DNA of 60,179 bases from a virus. Positions 22,198 to 42,382 of the stretch are shown here, in pieces. Under the pieces are notes generated by a model that was not told the origin of the DNA, searched no databases, and saw only the letters and a list, made by a program, of their open reading frames with translations. Position numbers and translations under genes: made by a program. The stretch is taken from the IMG/VR virus record IMGVR_UViG_3300043466_001244, positions 1 through 60,179 of that record. One strand, given 5' to 3'. How positions within the stretch are numbered: the first letter of the stretch is position 1; each line of letters opens with the position of its first letter.

Positions 22198-22788
22198 ATG
22201 CTCAGACTGCGCGACTACCAAACGGAAGTGATCGAATCGCTGCTGGACGCAATGCGCCGCGGTGTGAAGTCCACGCTCGTTGGGCTTTTCACCGGCGCCG
22301 GCAAAACCGTGATCTTCACTGCACTCGCGGATCGCATCGAAGGGCGCACGCTGATCATTGCTCCGATGCGTGAGTTGGTATGGCAGGCCGCTGACAAGGT
22401 TCGTCAGGTCACCGACTCTGACCCTGACATTGAGATGGCTGACTTCGTTGCCGAGCGGGACTACTGGCCGGCGAAGGTGGTGGTCGCATCGAAGCAGACG
22501 CTGCTGTCCAGCCGCCAAGGCGAGAAGCGATACCGCAGATTCAATGGGTTCTCTCTCGTCATTGTGGACGAGGCGCACATGCAGTGCAGCGAGCCGGTAA
22601 TTGAGATGTTGAAGTTCTTTCAAGACCAAGGCGCGATGGTCGCAGGATTCACGGCCACGCCGTTTCGGATGGACGGCAAGCCCATGCTAAGGAGTGACGC
22701 ATGCAGTTCTATCAAGAGTCAGTCTGTAACTACGACCTCCAGTGGGCCATCGCCAACGGCTGGGCAGTGCCGCCTGTTTGCAAGCTGA
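22198..22788 (+). CDS. Superfamily 2 helicase, first RecA-like domain (split gene, part 1)
   Basis: A 196-residue frame. It has the Q-motif region LRDYQTEVIESL, Walker A FTGAGKT (Thr32-Thr37 within residues 29-37), motif Ia IIAPMRELV, DEAH at 124-127, and motif III TATP at 152-155. After about residue 166 (GKPMLRSDA) the frame no longer looks like a helicase and ends 30 residues later. The second domain continues in another frame from 22701. Either the gene carries a one-base frame change or the helicase is made as two chains. Confidence 0.8.
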   Translation: MLRLRDYQTEVIESLLDAMRRGVKSTLVGLFTGAGKTVIFTALADRIEGRTLIIAPMRELVWQAADKVRQVTDSDPDIEMADFVAERDYWPAKVVVASKQTLLSSRQGEKRYRRFNGFSLVIVDEAHMQCSEPVIEMLKFFQDQGAMVAGFTATPFRMDGKPMLRSDACSSIKSQSVTTTSSGPSPTAGQCRLFAS

Positions 22789-23762
22789 GCCGGGTGGAGT
22801 CGCTGGATCTAAGCAAGGTCAACATTGTCGGCGGCGACTTCAACCAGACGAAGCTCGCCGCGGAACTGAACAAGGAAAGCAACTTGCACCGCGCCTGCAT
22901 GATCACCGCTGAAGAGATGGAGGGGCAGACCGTCCTCTTCACCGGCAGCGTGTTCGCAGCCAAGGGTGCGACTGAGTACCTGACCAGGAACTACGGGATC
23001 CCCGCCGTCTGTGTCTGGGGCACCATGCCCGATGAGGAGAGAGCCGATGCACTCGCAGCCTTTAAATCCAAGCAAGCCAAGGTCTTGGTCAATTGCCAAG
23101 TGGTTGCCGTGGGCTTCGACTACCCGCCCACAGCAACCCTTATCCTTGCCAGACCAACCCGCTCCCGATCTTTCTGGCTTCAGTGCGTTGGCCGAGCCAC
23201 TCGCCCTCTCCCCGGTGTCGTTGACGGCGAGGGTCTTCTCACACCTGCCGACAGAATTGCTGCGATCCAGCGTTCGGATAAGCCTCATTTCAAAATTGTT
23301 GACTGCACAGCAGGAACTCTGGATCACACAGTCATCACAAGTGTGGACATGTTCTGCACCTCGCCCGACGAGGAAGTCAAAGAAGCGGTGCGTAAAGCAG
23401 CGGCGCAGTCTCCACTCTCGCAGGAAGAGATAGACGCCTTGGCTGCGGCAGAGGCGCAGAAGAAGGCAGAGAAGATCGCCAGCGCCAAGCTCATCGAAGA
23501 GATGCGCCGCAACACTCAGGGGCGTGGCGAGGGCCGCATCCACGGCAAGGATGTGGACATCACATGGAAGGGCGTCCGCTCAGTGGGCACATACAACAAC
23601 CCGCTCAAGGGAAAGTACGCCGGCTACAAGCTGTCGGAGTTGCCCGATCACTACGTTCAATGGGCGGCTGGTAACGACAAGCTGAATGGCTGGATCAAGT
23701 CAATGTTCAGGAAGGAACTGGGGAGGAGACATGGCAGAGAAGAACGATTTGTTAGTCGATGA
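22701..23762 (+). CDS. Superfamily 2 helicase, second RecA-like domain (split gene, part 2)
   Basis: A 353-residue frame starting at ATG 22701 with AAGGAGTG five bases upstream, inside the end of part 1. QFYQESVCNYDLQWAIANGWAVPP is the usual inter-domain segment. The helicase C domain follows: TVLFTGSVFAAKG, VLVNCQVVAVGFDYP, LQCVGRATRPLPG (motif VI). Near the end, GKYAGYKLSELPDHYVQWAA resembles the small C-terminal domain of ExoX-type proteins. The good ribosome site supports real separate translation. Together the two parts would unwind DNA or remodel recombination intermediates. Confidence 0.8.
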   Translation: MQFYQESVCNYDLQWAIANGWAVPPVCKLSRVESLDLSKVNIVGGDFNQTKLAAELNKESNLHRACMITAEEMEGQTVLFTGSVFAAKGATEYLTRNYGIPAVCVWGTMPDEERADALAAFKSKQAKVLVNCQVVAVGFDYPPTATLILARPTRSRSFWLQCVGRATRPLPGVVDGEGLLTPADRIAAIQRSDKPHFKIVDCTAGTLDHTVITSVDMFCTSPDEEVKEAVRKAAAQSPLSQEEIDALAAAEAQKKAEKIASAKLIEEMRRNTQGRGEGRIHGKDVDITWKGVRSVGTYNNPLKGKYAGYKLSELPDHYVQWAAGNDKLNGWIKSMFRKELGRRHGREERFVSR

Positions 23763-30801: not shown

Positions 30802-31726
30802 CTTCGTTCCGCTCAAGGCGTACGACGATGGTCTGCAGGGCTGGATCAACAGCGCCCGCGAGCGCGTCCTGTGGCAGGAGTCCCAGCCCCGGCCGATCTA
30901 CTCTGAGCCGAATAGCATGGGGTCAGGCGACGGCAAGCGTGCCCTTCTGTGGCAGTACGTTCGAAAGCTAGACCCGCTGGCCTTCACTGAAGTTCAGACC
31001 GTAGGAGACTGCGTAGCACACGGCAGTCGGAACGCCCGGGATTGCACGCGCGCGGTCCAAGTTCTCCTAGAGCAGCGGCCAGAGTCTTTCATCTTGCGCG
31101 GTGCAACGGAGCCCACCTACGGGGCGCGTGGTCATAGCGGCGAGGGAATGGTCCCCGCAAGGGCATCGACCTTTGAGCGTGATGTGGGCTTCTTGATCCG
31201 TAAGAAGTATGACCCCGTTGATCTTTCAAAATACAACGGCTCACTGGGCGCCAAGTGGGGATCGACCGGCGTGCCCAGCGATGTGGCTGACCTGTGCAGG
31301 CAGCAGAAGGTCGGCATCATCCGACAGATCACCACCGTGCGCGATGCGATGGACGCACTGGCCAACGGGTACGGCATTCACTCTGGTCAGTACGCCAAGT
31401 GGGCGGGCTCACCCAACGCACAGAACATCCACCCTCGTCAGGCTGGCGGGTGGAACCATGACATGGCTACGGTGGGTTTCGATGACACCAAAGAGTTCTG
31501 GCCGTTCACAGTTTTCTTCATCCAGAATTCTTGGGGTGGGTGGAACCAGCCGGTGAAGGACTGGCCCTCGTCCTACCCTGAACAGGTGCCCGGCATGATC
31601 GTCACCAAGGCGGATGACTGGGCTGTGTGCGTCACCGATGGCGATGCCTGGGCCTACGGAAACGTGGATGGATTCCCTCCTCAAAAGCTGCCCGACTACG
31701 GCGCAGTAGGACTGCTGCAGACATGA
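30794..31726 (+). CDS. Papain-like cysteine protease (C1 fold)
   Basis: A 310-residue protein from GTG 30794. The active-site order of papain is visible: Gln68 and Cys73 in VQTVGDCVAHGS, His222 in GGWNHDMATVGF, and Asn245 in IQNSWGGWN. No signal peptide or propeptide is evident. It should be a cysteine protease or a related peptidase/amidase. It follows the subtilase cluster with tight overlaps and precedes a Cys-rich membrane protein. Papain-fold enzymes are uncommon in phage genomes; some similar folds cut peptidoglycan cross-links, so a lysis role must be considered. Confidence 0.8.
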   Translation: MSDFVPLKAYDDGLQGWINSARERVLWQESQPRPIYSEPNSMGSGDGKRALLWQYVRKLDPLAFTEVQTVGDCVAHGSRNARDCTRAVQVLLEQRPESFILRGATEPTYGARGHSGEGMVPARASTFERDVGFLIRKKYDPVDLSKYNGSLGAKWGSTGVPSDVADLCRQQKVGIIRQITTVRDAMDALANGYGIHSGQYAKWAGSPNAQNIHPRQAGGWNHDMATVGFDDTKEFWPFTVFFIQNSWGGWNQPVKDWPSSYPEQVPGMIVTKADDWAVCVTDGDAWAYGNVDGFPPQKLPDYGAVGLLQT

Positions 31727-32398: not shown

Positions 32399-32615
32399 AA
32401 CTGAACTGTGGATGCTCGGCATATCGGTTGCCGCAGCCGTCATCCCGTGGGCTTTCAGCCTGCATGCCAAGGTCGCGGTCATCGCCAATAGCGTGGAGAG
32501 TTTGCCCCGCATGCTGGACGAACTGCGACAGACGATAGAGGAACATGAGGTTCGTCTCAATCAGCATGACAAAAAGATTGAAGCTCTCGGCCAAGCGTCA
32601 GTCGCTGGTCGTTGA
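32388..32615 (+). CDS. Membrane helix plus coiled coil, holin/spanin-like
   Basis: A 75-residue protein. Residues 8-24 (LWMLGISVAAAVIPWAF) form a membrane helix, and residues 35-68 (ESLPRMLDELRQTIEEHEVR) a coiled coil. This topology is seen in small phage lysis-associated proteins of the XhlA or inner-spanin type. It lies at the end of the protease/membrane cluster. Role inferred. Confidence 0.45.
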   Translation: MSPETELWMLGISVAAAVIPWAFSLHAKVAVIANSVESLPRMLDELRQTIEEHEVRLNQHDKKIEALGQASVAGR

Positions 32616-33132
32616 GTACATGCCGCTAGCAGAAATGCTGGCCAAGTATTTCCTGCAGAACCGCCCGCACTGGCAGCGAGGCGTGCTAGTAGCAGACCTG
32701 CAGAGCGAAGGCTACCTCGCCATCTGCAAAGCGGCTCGCACCTATGATCCCAAGCGACTGCCCTACCCCAAGGCGTACTTCGCACGGGCCTGCCTCAATG
32801 CGATGTACAAGCAGATCAAGAAGTTGAGCCGTCAGCCTGGCGACATACGCATCACGCTGGAAGAAGCGGCCGACCTGCTGCCAGAGTTCGACCATTTGGA
32901 TCACATCAGACTGGCGATAGCTGATCTCCCAGAGTGGGAGCAAGAGCTAGCTACCGACAGGTTCATCCACGGCAAGACACTCAGAGCGCTGGCTGAGTCG
33001 CATGAAATTTCGCTTCGCGCTGCTGCTCGGCGGTCCACTGCTCTGGCGAAAGTCTTGGCGGAATCCTTGGGTATCCAGCTACCGCAGCCCGGTGCAGATT
33101 CCTTGTGTCAGTCAGGCCATAGTAGCCCCTGA
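32545..33132 (+). CDS. Sigma-70 family-like factor
   Basis: A 195-residue protein from ATG 32545 behind AGAGG; ATG 32569 is possible. Residues 22-95 resemble sigma region 2 (LVVEYMPLAEMLAKYF ... LQSEGYLAICKAARTYDPKR ... FARACLNAMYKQIKK). Residues 120-175 resemble region 4 (DLPEWEQELATDRFIHGKTLRALAESHEIS), a helix-turn-helix. It may direct host RNA polymerase to late promoters. Its last 50 codons overlap the serine recombinase gene on the other strand. Confidence 0.65.
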   Translation: MRFVSISMTKRLKLSAKRQSLVVEYMPLAEMLAKYFLQNRPHWQRGVLVADLQSEGYLAICKAARTYDPKRLPYPKAYFARACLNAMYKQIKKLSRQPGDIRITLEEAADLLPEFDHLDHIRLAIADLPEWEQELATDRFIHGKTLRALAESHEISLRAAARRSTALAKVLAESLGIQLPQPGADSLCQSGHSSP

Positions 33133-39248: not shown

Positions 39249-39413
39249 TCACATCCTCCCCAAGGTTTCCAACTGTCTGCGGTCATCGCTGTCCGCAACG
39301 ATTTCCACATGGCCCCACAGGCCAACGAGGTTGAGCCAGTCCCATGTGCCGGGACTAGGAGCCTCCGTGTCATCCCAAGTGATCTTCACCACTATGGTGC
39401 TAGTTCGTCGCAT
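39249..39413 (-). CDS. 54-residue protein of unknown function
   Basis: From ATG 39413 (weak GGTG upstream), reading RRTSTIVVKITWDDTEAPSP and then a Trp-rich stretch TWDWLNLVGLWG. Directly follows the Gp88-like gene by one base. Function unknown. Confidence 0.45.
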   Translation of the reverse strand: MRRTSTIVVKITWDDTEAPSPGTWDWLNLVGLWGHVEIVADSDDRRQLETLGRM

Positions 39414-39414
39414 G

Positions 39415-40161
39415 TCACACCGTCGCTTTCTGTCTGGAGTAAGAACCCACACCCCGCAAGGCTCGCACAGCCTTGCCAGCCTCTGATCCCTTGGGTTGAA
39501 CACCGTGGATCGGCAGGGCAAACGATGGACCGGGGAGAGCGGCATGACTGTCGTCATGGTCAATCTCCAGACCCAAGTCATCTGCTTCCTGCTCAGTGAA
39601 CACAACGCGGGCTTCCCGCAGACCATGCTCATCGATGAGATGGTCAGCCTTGCCGCCCCTGCTCGCAGTCAGCAGGAAGTTGTCAGGCAGGATCGCCCGA
39701 CGCTTGATCCAGAATGGCAGGCTCTTGGTGTATGCGTAGAACCGGACATCCGGCCTGCGGAACGCCAACTCCAGCCATGCATCGAAGTAGTTGAGCAACT
39801 TAAAGTCGCCAGCTACATGGATGCGGACACAGCCTGCATCTGCAGGCAGGGCATCCGCCAGGGCATCAGCTGCCCCCAGCACCGAATCAGCCGCAATCGG
39901 CAGGATCGCATCGGTGTTGGCCTGACGGGCCAGAAACACATTCGTATACGCCACCTCTTGCGAGGCAGAGAAGCACCGGAACAACGTGTTAGGGCCGTCA
40001 ACGATTGTCCGCTTGCCGTCAACGATGACCACCTTGGAATGGCAGTCATTCGCAAACGGACAAGTCACCCCTGACAGCATGTCAAAGGAATAGACATTGA
40101 CACCCAGACGCTTCTCCAGATTGGAGAGCTTGGCGTTGGCCGGTGCATAGCGTAGAGCCAT
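39415..40161 (-). CDS. Gp88-family protein
   Basis: A 248-residue protein from ATG 40161 with AGGAGGTG five bases upstream. GVNVYSFDMLSGVTCPFAND, then DGPNTLFRCFSASQEVAY, then IHVAGDFKLLNYFDAWLELA and VRFYAYTKSLPFW match the pattern of the Gp88 family known from mycobacteriophages and many others. Conserved Cys and the HVAGDF motif suggest a metal or Fe-S site, but the activity is not established. It is the largest gene of the - strand chain after the recombinase. Confidence 0.75.
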   Translation of the reverse strand: MALRYAPANAKLSNLEKRLGVNVYSFDMLSGVTCPFANDCHSKVVIVDGKRTIVDGPNTLFRCFSASQEVAYTNVFLARQANTDAILPIAADSVLGAADALADALPADAGCVRIHVAGDFKLLNYFDAWLELAFRRPDVRFYAYTKSLPFWIKRRAILPDNFLLTASRGGKADHLIDEHGLREARVVFTEQEADDLGLEIDHDDSHAALPGPSFALPIHGVQPKGSEAGKAVRALRGVGSYSRQKATV

Positions 40162-40278
40162 ATGCACCTCCTGAAAGAAACCGGAACCACAACGGCACCG
40201 GAACGCGGGCAGATGGCATTCGGATTTAGTTGGGCAATCGCCCGTTTACCGCAGCCACCTGCCCGTGATCGGATGTCG

Positions 40279-40488
40279 TCACTTCACCTTCACTGGCCGA
40301 CCATCTTTCATGGTCACCTGTGCATACCAGCGGTGAGGCTGGGGATAGTGCGGCCCCTCCACGGTGAACGTCCCGTTGCGGTAATCGCCACCCCCGAACG
40401 GCCCAGCTTGGTACAGCCCGAATGCCATACCTTGGGCAACAGCCTCTTTCAGCTGTTTCTTAGACTGAAAGTTATGGTCACAGTACAT
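40279..40488 (-). CDS. Small protein of unknown function
   Basis: A 69-residue protein from ATG 40488 behind AAAGGAGGTG, the first gene of the - strand chain. It begins MYCDHNFQSKKQLKEAVAQG. About 117 bases separate its stop from the Gp88-like gene and hold no gene that I can support. Confidence 0.5.
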   Translation of the reverse strand: MYCDHNFQSKKQLKEAVAQGMAFGLYQAGPFGGGDYRNGTFTVEGPHYPQPHRWYAQVTMKDGRPVKVK

Positions 40489-40865
40489 CACACCTCCTTT
40501 GCTGCCCGCATGCGCAGAAGCTACACGCGGGTGATGGGTGAAACGGAAGACGATACCAGACGTTGGCCGCGGTTAATAAAATCGAATCGAATCGATTTTA
40601 CTGCCCGCCAACCTAGTACGGCCCAGTGCAACCTGGGCGAATCGAAAATGTGACAACTGCTGCTGCCATCTGCCAGTTATGACAGATAGTAGAATCGTTG
40701 TCGTTTTGATTGTCGCGACGTTGGCCGCGATTACACACCTAGACAATGGCGGCGGTTAATAACCAAAAATAATTTTGGTTCCCCCCTTCCCCCGGACGAT
40801 AGTAACTGGTAAGAATACACCAGCCGTGGCACATTGCCCCGGCATTACCCCCGGAGGTTACTACC
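40489..40865. promoter_or_regulatory. Divergent control region rich in inverted and direct repeats
   Basis: No gene is supported here. TAAAATCGA/TCGATTTTA forms a perfect 9-pair inverted repeat at 40577-40600 with ATCGA iterons inside. AACCAAAA/TTTTGGTT forms an 8-pair repeat at 40761-40780. GCCCAG/CTGGGC pairs at 40621-40638. A 17-base direct repeat GACGTTGGCCGCG-TTA occurs at 40559-40575 and 40717-40733, with a degenerate third copy at 40745-40762. AT-rich blocks sit among GC-rich sequence. A replication origin or immunity/operator region is the likely function. Confidence 0.55.
40559..40733. repeat. Pair of 17-base direct repeats (outer limits)
   Basis: GACGTTGGCCGCGGTTA at 40559-40575 and GACGTTGGCCGCGATTA at 40717-40733 differ at one base. 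A third partial copy, ATGGCGGCGGTTAATAA, lies at 40746-40762. Each copy precedes or abuts an AT-rich stretch. Confidence 0.6.
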
Positions 40866-41867
40866 ATGCTTCGCAGTCTTAAGAATGTCCGCCGCGATAT
40901 CCGTAGCTACTATGCCCAGACATGCCCCATCATTCCGGGCAAACCCGGGCCCGTGGAACCGTTTTCCCCGCGATGCTTTGGGGAGACTGTGGAAGTGTGG
41001 GCCGCCGTTGACGGCTACGCGGAACGCTCGTTCCGGTGGGATATGGGCGGTCAGGATGGCAGGCAATTCGGCCCCGGCGAAGTGGAAGACGCCGTCGCCC
41101 TATTCCGGTGGATTCTGTGGACGATCACACCCGCACAGTGGCAGGCCATGGGGGTGGGGTATGGCGACCGTATGCGGGCGTTGCATATCGTTCGGGGGAG
41201 GCTCAAAAAGATGCATTGGAGGGACCGCCAGACCACAAGCGGTAGCCGAAAAGCGACCCGCCGCTACCGCAGCTACAAAGCATCCATGAGCCTGTCGGCC
41301 CCGTCCCCGGTAGCCGTGGCCGTGGCCGTGGAAGATGCCGCCCGGAACGGCCTACGGGGCAGGCGACCGGGGGCAGGCCGTCCGGCAATGGAAACCCGCA
41401 CAGTATCCCCCGCCACCGCTCACGCGGCGATCATGGGGGGGCCTACGCGGGAGATCGTCGTCGGCCCGGTGGCGGTGGACGGGGGTATAGCCCACGTTGA
41501 AACCGACGGCCGGATGCGAGAAGTAGAAATCCGTTCAGTAGCTTTCTCGTTTCACACTGGCAGGCGGATCGATGGCCGGTGGGTGCCGGACGGCGGGGTG
41601 GAGCAACTAGAGGAGATAGAAACCGGATACCGTATGGTTTCAAGCACCACCCGCGTGGAATACCCCCGGACCTTTGTAGCCGAGGCGGTGGACGTTGGAA
41701 CGGCGGTAGACCGCTTCACACCGGCCCAGACACCGACACCGGCACCATGGACACCAGAGCAACGGGGGCACGTTAAGACGATGCGGGAGACTGTCCGGGG
41801 GCGGGCGGTAGCGGGAGACGTTGACGCCTACCGTGCAGCACTTGCGGAATACTACGCGGGGAAGTAG
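40866..41867 (+). CDS. Lone protein with an AT-hook-like motif
   Basis: A 333-residue protein behind CGGAGG. Residues about 1-130 are basic with several Trp; residues 158-170 read LRGRRPGAGRPAM, close to an AT-hook (GRP core). The second half is beta-rich with VDGGIAHVETDGRMREVEIR. It stands alone between the repeat-rich control region and a very strong terminator, so it is transcribed separately. A DNA-binding role in replication, repression or lysogeny is inferred. No known repressor or initiator domain is recognised. Confidence 0.5.
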   Translation: MLRSLKNVRRDIRSYYAQTCPIIPGKPGPVEPFSPRCFGETVEVWAAVDGYAERSFRWDMGGQDGRQFGPGEVEDAVALFRWILWTITPAQWQAMGVGYGDRMRALHIVRGRLKKMHWRDRQTTSGSRKATRRYRSYKASMSLSAPSPVAVAVAVEDAARNGLRGRRPGAGRPAMETRTVSPATAHAAIMGGPTREIVVGPVAVDGGIAHVETDGRMREVEIRSVAFSFHTGRRIDGRWVPDGGVEQLEEIETGYRMVSSTTRVEYPRTFVAEAVDVGTAVDRFTPAQTPTPAPWTPEQRGHVKTMRETVRGRAVAGDVDAYRAALAEYYAGK

Positions 41868-41893
41868 ACCCCCGTCCACCACTGGCACAGTGT

Positions 41894-41933
41894 ATACCCC
41901 CCGTAGGCTAACCCCTACGGGGGGTATTTTATT
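41894..41933 (+). terminator. Perfect rho-independent terminator
   Basis: A 14-pair perfect stem (arms 41894-41907 and 41914-41927, core CCCCCCGTAGG) with loop CTAACC is followed by TTTATT. It ends the transcript of the lone gene at 40866-41867. Confidence 0.9.
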
Positions 41934-42382
41934 GAACCGCCCAGGTACTGTACGGGCGTATACCAGGATGATATGCAACGGGATTGCAAGAGGGGGATAG
42001 TGTACGGTTGGATAGGGGGGGCGATGCATGCCAGCCAATCCCCGGGGAAAATCAATGTTCACCAAATCGGTAATGTATCCCATGGTTTTGACTAGCTTAC
42101 AGAGAGAACGCCATAAGTGTAGGCGGGACATAGACTTAGGGAACGGGGGGGAGGGTTGGCGACACGTCGAACCACCCCCTCCCGCCCCCAACGCGGAAGC
42201 GGATTATTGTCATATCCACCCCTGGATTTTTTCACCCCTCTAGCCCCCATATGTCGCTTTTCCCCGGCCCCCACACCACATGCCGGCAATGTGTCGCCGC
42301 GTGACGCCTGTGGGTTTGCCCTGTTTCCCGGCCTTCTGCGCGTCCGCTGTCGCTGCTGGGCATTTGCCTAGTAGGAGGCCCC
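41934..42382. other. Intergenic region before the morphogenesis unit
   Basis: No gene is supported in these 449 bases. It contains the candidate promoter at 42088-42117, a GC-rich run with the nested repeat GGTT/AACC around CGACACGTCG near 42154-42174, and C-rich segments. The first gene of the morphogenesis unit follows with AGGAGG. Confidence 0.6.
42088..42117 (+). promoter_or_regulatory. Candidate promoter of the morphogenesis unit
   Basis: TTGACT (42088-42093) and CATAAG (42112-42117) are 18 bases apart, upstream of the first of more than thirty co-directional structural genes. The -10 box is weak, so a phage-specific sigma factor might act instead. Confidence 0.4.

Follow-up and report, generated by a model that had tools for sequence, protein, structure and literature searches.

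A probable phage control cassette in which a regulator gene and putative cognate operators are exchanged between conserved flanks

What is the function of a viral intergenic region that is dense in repeats and stands in front of a single gene with its own terminator? The preliminary description of the window, by which we mean the whole 60,179-nt stretch of DNA that was analysed, had proposed that these parts form a unit, built either as an origin with its initiator or as an operator with its regulator. We conclude that the locus is probably a phage control cassette, consisting of a regulator, its own promoter, a cognate operator pair and a terminator, that is swapped in the manner of the lambdoid immunity region.

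The ends of the record overlap directly by 127 bases; once this overlap is removed, the window represents a complete, circular phage assembly 60,052 bp long. Portal, major head and weak terminase matches were found among the window proteins scanned, and the window encodes a tyrosine recombinase, a serine recombinase, exonuclease VIII, ERF, a helicase and a sigma-like protein. Lysogeny is made possible by the recombinases; no integrated copy of the phage was found. Searches of cultured phages with megablast and tblastn detected no relative of the control region, the regulator, the portal or the capsid protein, and only for GP88, the product of the gene neighbouring the regulator, was a relative found among them. 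The sole cellular relative of the terminase (75% amino acid identity) is encoded on a 4,962-base contig (L079) in a Pirellulaceae MAG, which hints at a planctomycete host, misbinning being the alternative explanation; the same contig holds the portal region, with 76% DNA identity to the lineage. The sigma-like protein (32545-33129, + strand) matches Sigma70 region 2 above the cut-off, has phage gp55 as its nearest solved relative, and is kept at 61-85% in three of five relatives that were searched; the contigs of the other two are partial. An SF2 helicase appears to be split across two overlapping frames on the + strand, the ResIII/DEAD part coming first (22198-22788) and the Helicase_C part second (22701-23762), as a result of a frameshift, a sequencing error or a programmed shift.

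The control region (40489-40865) lies between a leftward operon, the first gene of which starts at its left edge, and the single rightward gene (Table 1). A relative, L005, has a 69-aa counterpart of the first leftward gene at the same place. Comparison with a relative of 78% identity (L047) yielded a dN/dS of 0.16 for the rightward gene, with 0.11 in the N-terminal half and 0.22 in the C-terminal half, confirming that this is a real gene. The 14-pair terminator was likewise borne out, since a folded 56-nt stretch has an energy of -30.9 kcal/mol (z = -6.1). Structural genes lie downstream of it, and several relatives have terminators of other sequence 3' of the regulator gene.

Table 1. Features in and around the control region, in window coordinates.
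Feature	Position	Strand	Basis or remark
First gene of leftward operon, 70 aa, function unknown	40279..40491	-	ORF list
Leader box CTGCCCGCATGCGCAG, directly ahead of the leftward operon's Shine-Dalgarno	40502..40517	-	Common to most relatives
Operator-like repeat copy 1, AGACGTTGGCCGCGGTTAATAA	40558..40579	+	Sequence scan
Inverted repeat 1, TAAAATCGA-N6-TCGATTTTA	40577..40600		Abuts copy 1; identical in L047
Weaker extra repeat copy, 77%	40716..40737	+	Its GTTGGCCGCGATTACA kept in nearest relatives
Operator-like repeat copy 2, AGACAATGGCGGCGGTTAATAA (86%)	40741..40762	+	Sequence scan
Inverted repeat 2, AACCAAAA-N4-TTTTGGTT	40761..40780		Abuts copy 2, overlaps -35-like hexamer
Putative rightward regulator promoter, TTGGTT-17-GATAGT, within lineage-wide CGATAGTA box	40775..40803	+	Comparison with relatives
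Putative regulator gene, 333 aa	40866..41867	+	ORF list, family comparison
AT-hook-like stretch LRGRRPGAGRP, residues 163-173	41352..41384	+	Window and nearest relatives only
Intrinsic terminator, 14-pair stem, loop 6, then TTTATT	41894..41927	+	Fold scan
Lineage-conserved element, core 42216-42239 (CCACCCCTGGATTTTTTCACCCCT)	42175..42266		Right homology edge of exchanged cassette

The near-identical 17-base repeats with a third copy that had been noted at this locus are real and extend to 17-22 nt. Direct repeats in the control region score up to 14, whereas 20 dinucleotide-preserving shuffles reached no more than 11, and at up to four mismatches we found no further copy elsewhere in the 60-kb window. 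Each of the two principal copies adjoins an inverted repeat. These had been read as two perfect palindromes; their arms are indeed perfect and their sequences differ, but with unpaired centres of 6 and 4 bases they are better described as inverted repeats. Apart from inverted repeat 2, the window contains just one inverted repeat whose arms are 8 or longer and whose centre is no longer than 4; the arms of inverted repeat 2 are conserved in L047 with an altered centre. The ATCGA iterons are present as letters (four of the window's seven AATCGA words fall in 40580-40640), but three of them simply constitute inverted repeat 1.

A longer imperfect hairpin, GTTGGC..GCCAAC (40562-40612), is built around inverted repeat 1 and folds better than all shuffles (z = -4.6). 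The block at 40498-40818 might hence act mainly as RNA, as a leader or small RNA to which the adjacent gene is a mere neighbour. Consistent with this, the block is nearly invariant between the window and L047, at ~96% identity over most of 320 nt with the spacers included, in spite of a dS of 1.1 in the gene. This near-identity exceeds what operators need and has to be put down to a recent exchange or to some further function; a recent exchange of the intergenic block would explain it as well. However, shuffled sequences fold as well as the copy-2 region (z = 0.2), no Rfam family matched at gathering score, and in most of the relatives compared the spacer is unconserved and the repeat sequence changes outright. 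We therefore consider an RNA element very improbable.

Relatives of the locus were gathered by a search with the neighbouring gene, GP88, followed by three profile searches with the resulting proteins. This gave 30 distinct regulator loci including that of the window, each with one family gene of 178-333 aa; the same syntenic place holds one family member in all 29 relatives examined. One contig (L013/L014, IMGVR_UViG_3300049595_001870, 117,778 bases) has two different GP88/regulator loci ~59 kb apart, as though the assembly had fused the genomes of two related phages. The window regulator has three close homologues (78%), and identity across this fast-evolving family is about 20%, with only W118, P148 and E156 (window numbering) invariant. 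Profile comparison links three subfamilies (S1-S3, E = 4e-10; S1-S2, 1e-5; S2-S3, 5e-6, or 1e-4 in the other direction), where unrelated and reversed controls gave E values of at least 0.15. A helical N-terminal domain (about residues 30-120) is family-wide, and the C-terminal part is variable. An AlphaFold model of the window protein (pLDDT 56) is confident in the N-terminal domain alone and gave no usable match in Foldseek.

The absence of a match to known repressors or initiators, as stated in the preliminary description, was confirmed in Pfam, PHROGs, PDB sequences and cultured phages: searches of the first three with the family gave no match, and Pfam recognised no helix-turn-helix, HTH_3/CI/Cro or other DNA-binding family in any of the 30 members. 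The family profile also retrieved nothing from bacterial genomes. The AT-hook-like stretch singled out previously is present in the window protein, which in this basic, GRP-containing segment resembles AT-hook proteins of the HMGA type. It lacks the canonical RGRP core, however, and RGRRPGAGRP is confined to the window and its nearest relatives and missing from the rest of the family. We therefore rejected an AT-hook as a family trait.

The architecture of the control region is conserved across the lineage. In 28 of the 30 phages the best upstream direct repeat beats all 20 of its own shuffles, although the top pair is not the homologous one in L038 and L060, and partly in L032 and L033, which leaves ~25 clean cases. 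Most phages have two copies, spaced usually by 130-215 bp (full range 80-214 bp) and typically ~260-370 and 120-160 nt upstream of the regulator start codon. An A/T-rich inverted repeat follows each copy; its sequence varies by phage, and the two copies of one phage often differ in it as well. L015 and L017, a close pair, have different arms that nevertheless stay complementary (GGAAAATC/GATTTTCC versus TAGAAAATC/GATTTTCTA), which suggests that selection may act on the symmetry itself. Similarly, repeats and A/T inverted repeats persist among the near relatives L031-L033 and L042/L043 where the spacers change. Confinement is not peculiar to the window. In scans of whole contigs with one representative repeat per group, those of G005 and G008 occur exactly twice per contig at up to two mismatches, and those of G006 and G007 have additional hits only with two mismatches, at the level of reversed-pattern controls. 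The copies show no helical phasing (Rayleigh p = 0.62), and we rejected DNA looping through such phasing as unsupported.

If the repeats are operators of the adjacent protein, the two should change together. Repeat similarity is at background (~6) for regulators less than 50% identical, and rises to 12.5 at 50-70% and 19 at >70% identity. The overall correlation is weak (Mantel rho = 0.13, p = 0.06) because similarity saturates below 50% identity. Repeats and regulator thus appear to change together, a pattern that descent alone would also give in close pairs.

Cassette exchange provides what we judge, from sequence comparison, to be the stronger argument. The relative L005 aligns with the window at 89% DNA identity over 39406-40514, 87% over 42175-42266 and 83% around 45 kb, on the capsid-side flank; its GP88 protein is 97% identical to that of the window. 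Between these flanks, over 40515-42174, there is no alignment at all: L005 has a member of another subfamily and other repeats there, both unrelated in sequence to those of the window. A second relative, L002, presents the converse, sharing the regulator and control region with the window but not the adjacent GP88 gene. The edges of the exchanged block coincide with the leader box of the leftward operon (40502-40517) on the left and with the conserved element before the structural genes on the right. Hence the control region, lone gene and terminator do form a unit, as proposed, which occupies the same place in relatives with different sequence and is exchanged between conserved flanks.

A unit of this kind could also be a replication origin, in which the repeats would be initiator sites, the A/T inverted repeats an unwinding element and the protein a loader of the host helicase; repeats and initiator would then diverge jointly, as in incompatibility groups. 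Scans of window proteins revealed neither a polymerase nor a known initiator, so there has to be an origin somewhere, and the locus resembles iteron origins with autoregulated initiators in having an initiator-like gene beside its own repeats, each adjoined by A/T-rich tracts. Moreover, the cumulative GC-skew, proposed as a check, has its minimum at 40,969. However, the maximum is at 31,671, only 9 kb away, and the drop falls wholly within the leftward-transcribed block. It is therefore explained by gene orientation, and we rejected the skew as evidence for an origin. Unlike iteron origins, the locus has only two widely spaced copies, 80-214 bp apart across the lineage and lacking helical phasing, rather than a tandem array; Pfam and PHROG gave no match to a replication-initiator family; and copy 2 abuts a conserved promoter-like site. 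We consider an origin quite unlikely. Of the two possibilities raised for this locus, the origin with its initiator found no positive support, and the operator with its regulator is favoured by the confinement of the repeats, by the promoter-like site next to copy 2 and by the tracking of repeat and regulator in close pairs.

The promoter-like site bears directly on how such a cassette might work. In the window it is weak against the consensus (3/6 and 4/6), and a stricter sigma-70 promoter scan of the window reported nothing, this site included; it is clearer in relatives (L052: TTGACA-17-GATAGT). A CGAT-type -10 box lies 52-87 nt ahead of the regulator in 29 of the 30 phages, and the best -35/-10 score averages 5.67, compared with 4.80 in shuffles. 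Copy 2 runs into the -35-like site, 17 nt before the CGAT-type box. We propose an autoregulated switch. Host RNA polymerase would first transcribe the leftward operon, which is probably early, together with the regulator. The regulator would then bind the repeat with its A/T inverted repeat at two sites, each close to one of the divergent promoters, and binding would control both the leftward operon and the regulator's own synthesis. The terminator would shut the cassette off from the structural genes. Between repression and activation of the regulator's own promoter we lean slightly towards repression, given that copy 2 and its inverted repeat abut or overlap the -35 region. Such a switch may serve immunity and lysogeny, or the change from early to late expression.

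A different relation between protein and repeats is suggested by predicted structure. In Foldseek searches with L026, the best-predicted member (190 aa, pLDDT 77), sigma chains of initiation complexes took PDB ranks 1, 2, 4, 6, 7 and more. The SigR sigma-2 fragment reached a TM-score of 0.55 by target length, and sigma factors also recurred among viral proteins. The predicted order of helices fits sigma-2, linker and sigma-4, as in ECF sigma factors, including those of phages. Hence the protein might be a highly diverged ECF-type sigma factor that steers host RNA polymerase to the repeat pair as its own cognate promoters, which would be formed by the TATA-like part of the repeat together with its GGAAC/A-tract part; many repeat copies contain TATA-like and GGAAC/GGAAA parts. 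However, all of the fold matches are non-significant (best E = 0.3), and the window protein's own low-confidence model has no sigma match. A profile comparison with ten ECF sigma factors was null (probability 0.4%, E = 0.15, equal to controls), and Pfam found no Sigma70_r2 match in any of the 30 members. Nor is there a conserved promoter order as for ECF sigma factors: the putative -10 and -35 parts are wrongly ordered for the rightward direction, and their spacing is short for the leftward. In addition, a recognisable sigma protein is encoded elsewhere in the phage (32545-33129). A diverged sigma factor of this type is thus unlikely, and the predicted resemblance of fold, which weakly suggests a sigma-factor-like domain, is a lead only. 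A further idea, to which we give slightly more room while regarding it as doubtful, is that this is a new family of switch proteins, a degenerate sigma-factor fold turned site-specific regulator. By cassette exchange within the lineage, their specificity and operators would have diversified into many types that exclude one another.

Diversifying regulator-operator pairs in one phage lineage are natural experiments on the joint change of specificity and sites. Lambdoid and Cluster A phages have provided the main examples. As in lambdoid immunity regions (CI/Cro), the probable control cassette described here has putative divergent promoters, paired operators and an adjacent regulator, and the operator-like sites are confined to a divergent intergenic region beside that regulator. 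It also shares with them allelic cassettes between conserved flanks, each regulator being putatively matched to its own operators; allelic exchange between homologous flanks is seen in both L005 and L002 relative to the window. It differs in having no HTH_3/CI/Cro protein, in having one regulator instead of two divergent ones, and in its direct repeats, which are long-spaced and adjoined by A/T inverted repeats. Cluster A mycobacteriophage repressors and their stoperators are similar in forming specificity groups in one lineage and in using asymmetric sites, but those sites are many and spread through the genome, whereas here there are two or three in the control region only (PMC6550527, PMC9283540); the Cluster A repressors have no sequence match to the window family. 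Thus, a phage control region with cognate operators is of a known kind, and what is new is the protein family, the design of long-spaced repeat plus inverted repeat, and the number of allelic types in one uncultured lineage. This lineage of uncultured freshwater-type phages offers some 25 distinct allelic pairs, and its regulator family lacks any named relative. If the proposed binding is true, the set would supply new orthogonal regulator/operator pairs and allow cross-immune phages to be predicted.

Two other sequence features of the locus recur in relatives. The element TCATATCCACCCCTGGATTTTTTCACCCC within 42175-42266, upstream of the structural genes, hardly varies in most of them; it is present with 0-3 mismatches in about half of the relatives and with up to 9 in the rest, 176-349 nt past the regulator stop codon even though the regulators differ; two truncated contigs end before reaching it. 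The near-complete L050 contig (59,711 bases) terminates about where the element would start. The element is a candidate packaging (cos/pac) or late control site. Finally, G+C-rich hairpins with arms of at least 7 occur in 9 of the 30 regulator leaders, compared with 3% in shuffles, ~40-60 nt before the regulator start and with a different sequence in every phage. In L051/L053 this hairpin reads GGAATTGTTCC, the inverse of the GGAACAATTCC type of the repeat, and is possibly a third site.
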